A DNA stretch of 34,372 bases from Coprobacillus sp. (GTDB lineage: Bacteria > Bacillota_I > Bacilli_A > RFN20 > CAG-826), in assembly GCA_021203815.1 (NCBI GenBank), contig JAJQAL010000008.1:1-34372 (forward strand). Reading direction: 5' to 3'. Below are positions 12,244-13,133 of the stretch, in pieces; positions within the stretch are counted from its first letter, which is position 1; each line of letters opens with the position of its first letter. The notes under the pieces were generated by a model. It saw only the letters and a list, made by a program, of their open reading frames with translations. It searched no databases and was not told the DNA's origin. Position numbers and translations under genes: made by a program.

Positions 12244-12477
12244 ATGAGCGAACTAAATGGTCAAGTATTAGGTTTACTCCTCGTTGTCGCGGTCTTCGCC
12301 GCGATGGTACCAACACTTATCAGTCTATTTAATGGAATGGTTGAAAATGTTGAGGACGAGATTACTTCTCTATATGACGCAGATGGACATCTAATAACCA
12401 CATATGGTACAGACGATGATGATGATCCACCCGGTGAGTCAAAGATATATCTCATCTCTGATTTACTCTCATTCTAA
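12244..12477 (+). CDS. Flp-like candidate major pilin (77 aa)
   Basis: MSELNGQVLGLLLVVAVFAAMVPTLISLFNGMVENVEDEI...: single N-terminal hydrophobic helix and a short tail. Preceded by AAAGGAGG, the strongest Shine-Dalgarno in the cluster. Confidence 0.55.
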   Translation: MSELNGQVLGLLLVVAVFAAMVPTLISLFNGMVENVEDEITSLYDADGHLITTYGTDDDDDPPGESKIYLISDLLSF

Positions 12478-12494
12478 TTATTAAACTATTATCA

Positions 12495-12563
12495 ATTTGC
12501 CCGCCAAAACACCCCTTTTGGTTCCCTACCTCTATTCCATCTATTTCTAATAGGCGGGCAAAT
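12495..12563. repeat. Perfect 11-bp GC-rich inverted repeat with 47-nt loop
   Basis: ATTTGCCCGCC (12495-12505) and GGCGGGCAAAT (12553-12563). The loop contains a second CCAAAA/TTTTGG pairing option. Confidence 0.85.
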
Positions 12564-12573
12564 GGTATATATG

Positions 12574-12611
12574 AAGACTAAATAGTCACACCGCTCTATT
12601 TAGTCTTTTTT
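12574..12611 (+). terminator. Rho-independent terminator of the pilus-like operon
   Basis: AAGACTAAATAG - 10 nt - CTATTTAGTCTT perfect 12-bp stem followed by a T tract. Confidence 0.85.
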
Positions 12612-12618
12612 AAATATT

Positions 12619-12638
12619 TATAAAGATTAATCTTTATA
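12619..12638. promoter_or_regulatory. Perfect 20-bp palindrome upstream of acpP (candidate operator)
   Basis: TATAAAGATT|AATCTTTATA, ending 5 bp before a TTGTAA-like -35 box. Confidence 0.5.
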
Positions 12639-12643
12639 TATAT

Positions 12644-12671
12644 TTGTAATTTAGCAAGAAAATGATAAAAT
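12644..12671 (+). promoter_or_regulatory. Candidate acpP promoter
   Basis: TTGTAA (12644-12649), 16 bp spacer, TAAAAT (12666-12671). Confidence 0.5.
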
Positions 12672-12696: not shown

Positions 12697-12921
12697 ATGA
12701 ATATTGATGAAATTCTATCTTCAATTCTCTCTAAAAGAGTGGATATCAGCTCTATTAATGATAATAGCGTCCTTAGTGACCTCGGCCTTGATTCCCTCGA
12801 TTTAGTAGAAGTTATGATGGAAATTGAAGCGGAACTCAATGTGGAGTTCTCTAATGAAGAGATTTTAGCGATTAAGACAATTAAAGATGTGAAGGCTCTA
12901 ATTAACTCAAAGGTGAGTTAA
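12697..12921 (+). CDS. acpP: Acyl carrier protein
   Basis: 74 aa with the phosphopantetheine motif DLGLDSLDLVEVMMEIEAELNVEF. Confidence 0.93.
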   Translation: MNIDEILSSILSKRVDISSINDNSVLSDLGLDSLDLVEVMMEIEAELNVEFSNEEILAIKTIKDVKALINSKVS

Positions 12922-12975
12922 TACTCTTGCACTTTTACTTCTATTTTGCTAATATCTATTTTGCTTTATAGGGAT

Positions 12976-13051
12976 GCCTACTTAGCTCAGTCGGCAGAGC
13001 AATCGGCTGTTAACCGATCGGTCGTGGGTTCGAGTCCCTCAGTAGGCGCCA
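12976..13051 (+). tRNA. tRNA-Asn (anticodon GTT), CCA encoded
   Basis: GCCTACT/AGTAGGC acceptor, ATCGG CTGTTAA CCGAT anticodon arm, GCGCCA end. Confidence 0.95.
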
Positions 13052-13056
13052 CTCTT

Positions 13057-13133
13057 GGCCAGTTGGAGAAGCGGCTTAACTCATCACCCTTTCACGGTGA
13101 CATACACGGGTTCGAATCCCGTACTGGTCACCA
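13057..13133 (+). tRNA. tRNA-Glu (anticodon TTC), CCA encoded
   Basis: GGCCAGT/ACTGGTC acceptor, TCACC CTTTCAC GGTGA anticodon arm, ACGGGTTCGAATCCCGT T-arm. Confidence 0.93.

Follow-up and report, generated by a model that had tools for sequence, protein, structure and literature searches.

Why should an operon that already ends in an ordinary terminator carry a GC-rich hairpin just before it? The window, by which we mean the whole 34,372-nucleotide stretch of Coprobacillus sp. DNA analyzed here (genome G000), contains such an element between the stop codon of a pilin-like gene (12475–12477) and an intrinsic terminator (12574–12607). An earlier note, made from the letters alone, had described a perfect 11-bp GC-rich inverted repeat with a 47-nt pyrimidine-rich loop, lying between the pilin stop and a separate, ordinary terminator; the arms, the loop composition, and the placement were all found to be as described. 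The features of the region are as follows.

12244 to 12477, + strand: flp-like small pilin gene, 77 amino acids, last of a Tad-like pilus operon (by translation and synteny)
12495 to 12505, + strand: 5' arm of the hairpin, ATTTGCCCGCC
12506 to 12552, + strand: hairpin loop, 47 nt, C/T-rich, 2 G
12553 to 12563, + strand: 3' arm of the hairpin, GGCGGGCAAAT
12574 to 12611, + strand: AT-rich intrinsic terminator, 12-bp stem (12574–12585/12596–12607) followed by Ts, conserved in the same-genus genome G001
12697 to 12921, + strand: acpP-like acyl carrier protein gene, downstream syntenic marker (Pfam PP-binding, 1.4e-12)
12976 to 13133, + strand: tRNA-Asn and tRNA-Glu, syntenic markers, same pair in G001

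The upstream Tad-like operon contains a T2SSE ATPase recognized by Pfam (2e-19) and a T2SSF-like membrane protein with a weak Pfam match (3.5e-4, below Pfam's cut-off). A Pfam search with the gene at 12244–12477 gave no match. Its product starts with an M(S/G)E(I/L)(K/N)GQ(L/I)LG-like sequence, which is common to the syntenic small proteins encoded before acpP in most relatives examined, and by synteny and form it is probably an flp-like pilin. The gap between the terminator and acpP holds a 17-nt AT-rich palindrome (12612–12645), 94% complementary and without a spacer; in G001 a partly conserved version of it is present (TTATAAAGAGTTATCTTTATAA).

The two arms, ATTTGCCCGCC and GGCGGGCAAAT, are perfectly complementary over 11 bp, 7 of them GC, and the loop is poor in G (A12 C15 G2 T18). 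The earlier note had also proposed a CCAAAA/TTTTGG pair nested inside the stem. These letters are present; however, the outer stem already uses their CC. The pair therefore competes with the main stem instead of nesting within it, and it is missing both from the minimum-energy fold of the segment and from G001.

Considering that intrinsic (Rho-independent) terminators are likewise GC-rich hairpins in a 3' region, the stem could be a second, auxiliary terminator or a pause hairpin. The element differs from them in that its loop far exceeds intrinsic-terminator loops, its 3' arm is followed by no T-run in either the window or G001, and a real terminator lies downstream, its stem starting about ten bases past the hairpin in both genomes. 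A consensus terminator scan lists nothing at the hairpin, but it also misses the evident terminator at 12574–12607, whose loop is too long for the scan, and its result thus carries little weight. Because of the missing T-run and the long loop a second terminator, which the earlier note had called unlikely, is very improbable.

How unusual is such a structure in this genome? The 96-nt segment that contains it folds at -23.4 kcal/mol (z = -4.2), and none of 200 shuffled versions folded as well. The inverted-repeat thresholds were chosen after the element had been seen, so the following figures convey its rarity rather than serving as strict tests. Inverted repeats of at least 11 bp with at least 7 GC pairs and a loop of at most 80 nt average 0.023 per second-order Markov version of the window, and mononucleotide shuffling of the local 220 nt produced none in 20,000 trials. 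A genome sample of 272,611 bases (about 273 kb, window included) was scanned for perfect repeats with 9 bp or more, 6 or more GC pairs, and a loop of 15–80 nt. No other GC-rich long-loop inverted repeat in this sample is as strong as the element, and the only further perfect repeat lies inside a coding sequence. A stable non-terminator hairpin in the 3' UTR, as expected of an operon 3' protective stem-loop, is thus present.

A homologous element was found in the same place on contig C15 of G001 (TTTACCCACC, 36 nt, and GGTGGGTAA). This contig opens with TAAG..., taken from its alignment to the window to be the flp stop, and the flp gene itself is not on it; downstream, acpP shows 81% nucleotide identity and is accompanied by the tRNA pair listed above. 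The G001 loop is also G-poor (1 G in 36) and can partly be aligned with that of the window, being otherwise of different length. The flanks, and the loop as far as it can be aligned, are about 76–80% identical, similar to other intergenic DNA. An extra palindrome, TATCAATATTGATA, is located just upstream of the G001 hairpin (L002 9-22) and is absent from the window.

For a comparison of pairing in the two stems, the shorter G001 loop was filled up with N to bring the arms into register, as plain alignments failed to place both arms. Pairs 5 and 9 have changed on both sides, being G-C in the window and A-T in G001; seven pairs are invariant, and the two outermost pairs are not formed in G001. 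All pairs of the nine-pair core are Watson-Crick in G001. When the partner was slid by 1–3 columns, 33–50% of positions were paired and compensation fell to zero. A permutation control gave 119/500, a figure that cannot reach significance with two rows. The earlier note had named a lack of compensatory change in relatives among the findings that would refute it; such change has now been found, in two pairs. These two pairs are the main evidence of selection on the pairing, of modest weight as the comparison covers only two sequences, the window and G001.

A neutral or transient structure would account for some of these observations. In that case the ancestor shared by G000 and G001 acquired a functionless insertion, and the compensated pairs are a matter of luck, which is consistent with the limitation of the element to two genomes and with surroundings and loop that diverge at the ordinary intergenic rate. 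However, when four unconstrained substitutions were simulated in the 9-bp core, all pairs stayed intact in only about 0.3% of cases (p ~0.003), and the element departs strongly from background in both genomes. We consider a structure without function somewhat unlikely.

The distribution of the element was then compared with that of its surroundings. The order flp–terminator–acpP is widespread in the family. Sixty-nine related loci were processed, and an flp-like ORF was present in 62, some of which (e.g., L040, L046, and L101) are probably not pilin. In G002, a member of the same genus, the terminator follows the flp stop directly and the slot contains no extra stem; in G003 the contig stops inside flp, so the slot is not covered. 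Among the relatives' folds listed, none showed, as judged by eye, a further long-loop, GC-rich hairpin ahead of the terminator. The absence of the element from the G002 slot and from the other relatives listed implies that pilin expression does not generally depend on it.

Contig ends are found near flp in several of these assemblies. Of the three other assemblies from this genus, two have a contig that ends inside flp (G001:C27, L065 1924-1948; G003:C85, L066 about 2027-2067), at stated coverages of 59x and 208x, and another G001 contig (C15, L068 1) starts at the apparent flp stop codon. Strain-level hypervariability of the pilin could be responsible, as could coincidence. Two contigs from other genera of the family (G170:C36 and G090:C38; L081 and L106) end about 150–170 nt upstream of acpP, near the 3' end of flp; no excess of breaks there was obvious by eye among the plus-strand acpP matches. 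On the side facing the tRNA genes, many related contigs end about 200–300 nt from acpP (acpP–tRNA-Asn–tRNA-Glu in the window, 12697–13133), where perhaps the conserved tRNA sequences break the assembly.

The earlier note had suggested a covariance search in homologous loci and a search for further copies of the arm pair. A covariance-model search of 58 relatives recovered only the two known loci, and DNA, pattern, and covariance-model searches of the related genomes and of the window's own assembly (72% complete) revealed no other copies. When one mismatch is allowed, the genome contains 18 occurrences of TTTGCCCGCC against 14 of a reversed control, which is no clear enrichment; both arms together occur in the own genome at this locus only. 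One further model match in G001 (contig C3, E = 0.001) lies inside a coding gene, cytidylate kinase-like by translation, and was rejected as a chance match. Among 4227 Rfam families, none but the two tRNAs scored above threshold near the element or at its G001 homologue.

The TadC-like protein alone, used as query, found no relatives in genome contigs. With the four-species alignment as query, viral contigs yielded no relatives, and genome contigs yielded three MAG contigs and no species beyond G001–G003. Five phage matches, among those listed, were discarded, only the tRNA-bearing portion of the query being similar to them. A literature search found no flp 3'-UTR hairpin among the titles listed. 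As far as seen in these sequences, the element seems to be lineage-specific, young, present in a single copy, and kept by pairing.

Copy number also bears on whether the arms act at the level of DNA, as a protein-binding site, a cruciform, or a recombination or transposition end. Complementary arms work in DNA too, and since the compensations are full Watson-Crick, the pairing does not separate RNA from DNA function. Folding z-scores differ between the strands of the window (-4.2 on the + or pilin strand vs. -1.3 on the - strand); in G001 they are about equal (-3.9 vs. -3.8), a result that would suit a DNA site. On the other hand, the element is single-copy in its own and in same-genus genomes, the second G001 match being the one in a coding gene, and no mobile genes were seen next to it. 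No further genome copies, as would be expected of a mobile element, a MITE, or a dispersed repeat, were found in the own assembly, which is 72% complete. In addition, both species have the pyrimidine-rich side of the loop on the same strand, and the element, read on the pilin strand, lies right before the terminator. A DNA-level site is thus quite unlikely, and the recombination site proposed in the earlier note, with one genome copy, a kept loop orientation, and no mobile-element signature seen, finds no support here.

The location of the element, on the pilin strand and ahead of the terminator, together with the kept pairing, points to a function at the 3' end of the mRNA, and we infer that the element acts as RNA. 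One way to do so is to give rise to a small RNA freed from the pilin 3' UTR, whose C/U-rich loop would serve as a seed for G/A-rich ribosome-binding sites (RBSs), possibly including that of the pilin itself (feedback), and whose 3' end would be formed by the terminator. The anatomy, an unstructured C/U loop plus a terminator, fits this model, and 3'-UTR small RNAs of surface appendages are known, such as FliX, which derives from the 3' end of fliC (PMC10578931). The element resembles the fliC case in being a structured 3' region of a filament-subunit gene; unlike FliX, it has no Hfq link and no conserved seed, and its discrete RNA is hypothetical.

When the loop was paired with 23 start regions of the window, the pilin RBS ranked first (-16.2 kcal/mol). 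However, shuffled loops pair with it about equally well (p = 0.075 for the G000 loop and 0.50 for that of G001, uncorrected for the 23 targets), the window and G001 loops share no conserved seed motif, and no promoter-like site was found in the 3' UTR before the stem. A conserved seed with better-than-shuffled targets was therefore not found among the window start regions. The small RNA is the main rival explanation, although we think it somewhat unlikely. A more specific version, a lineage-specific riboregulator of the Tad-type pilus whose G-poor loop pairs with the pilin RBS and tunes pilin dosage, has only a slim chance of being correct.

The reading that we tentatively favor, at slightly less than an even chance, is a hairpin that protects the 3' end of the pilin mRNA or takes part in its processing. 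The stem-loop would sit in the 3' UTR of the pilin operon mRNA in one small lineage, where its 11-bp GC-rich stem, ahead of the AT-rich terminator, may block exonucleases or mark the end-point of processing. Such a barrier would prolong the life of the pilin mRNA, the pilin presumably being the operon product needed in the largest amount, and the loop may stay G-poor to avoid pairing with the C-rich arm. Non-terminator stabilizing 3' hairpins have been documented in E. coli operons (PMC5927463). Similar to the malE-type stem-loops described there, the element is a non-terminator hairpin after a gene, placed against 3'-5' decay. It differs from them in its location at the operon end, directly before the terminator, and in its 47-nt loop, its activity being predicted only, in a Firmicutes-like genome with other RNases; decay differs in Firmicutes, which use other RNases (PMC5927463). 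The terminator hairpin is a 3' barrier already, so a second barrier looks redundant, and an unpaired loop of 47 nt could be liable to endonuclease cuts, which counts against a barrier.

Of the roles that the earlier note had listed, a 3'-UTR stabilizer or a small RNA is thus supported as far as sequence goes, by a homologue with two compensatory changes and by the missing T-run. Nothing points to a new mechanism; the structure is real, and its comparative support is modest. The element is probably a functional RNA end structure, either a stabilizer or the source of a small RNA, and otherwise of an ordinary kind. If it is not functional, it is an ordinary 3'-UTR hairpin. If it is functional, it would represent a recently gained post-transcriptional control element of the major pilin in an uncultured, Firmicutes-like lineage with small genomes, for which the conserved order flp–terminator–acpP offers a clean comparison of sister species with and without the hairpin.
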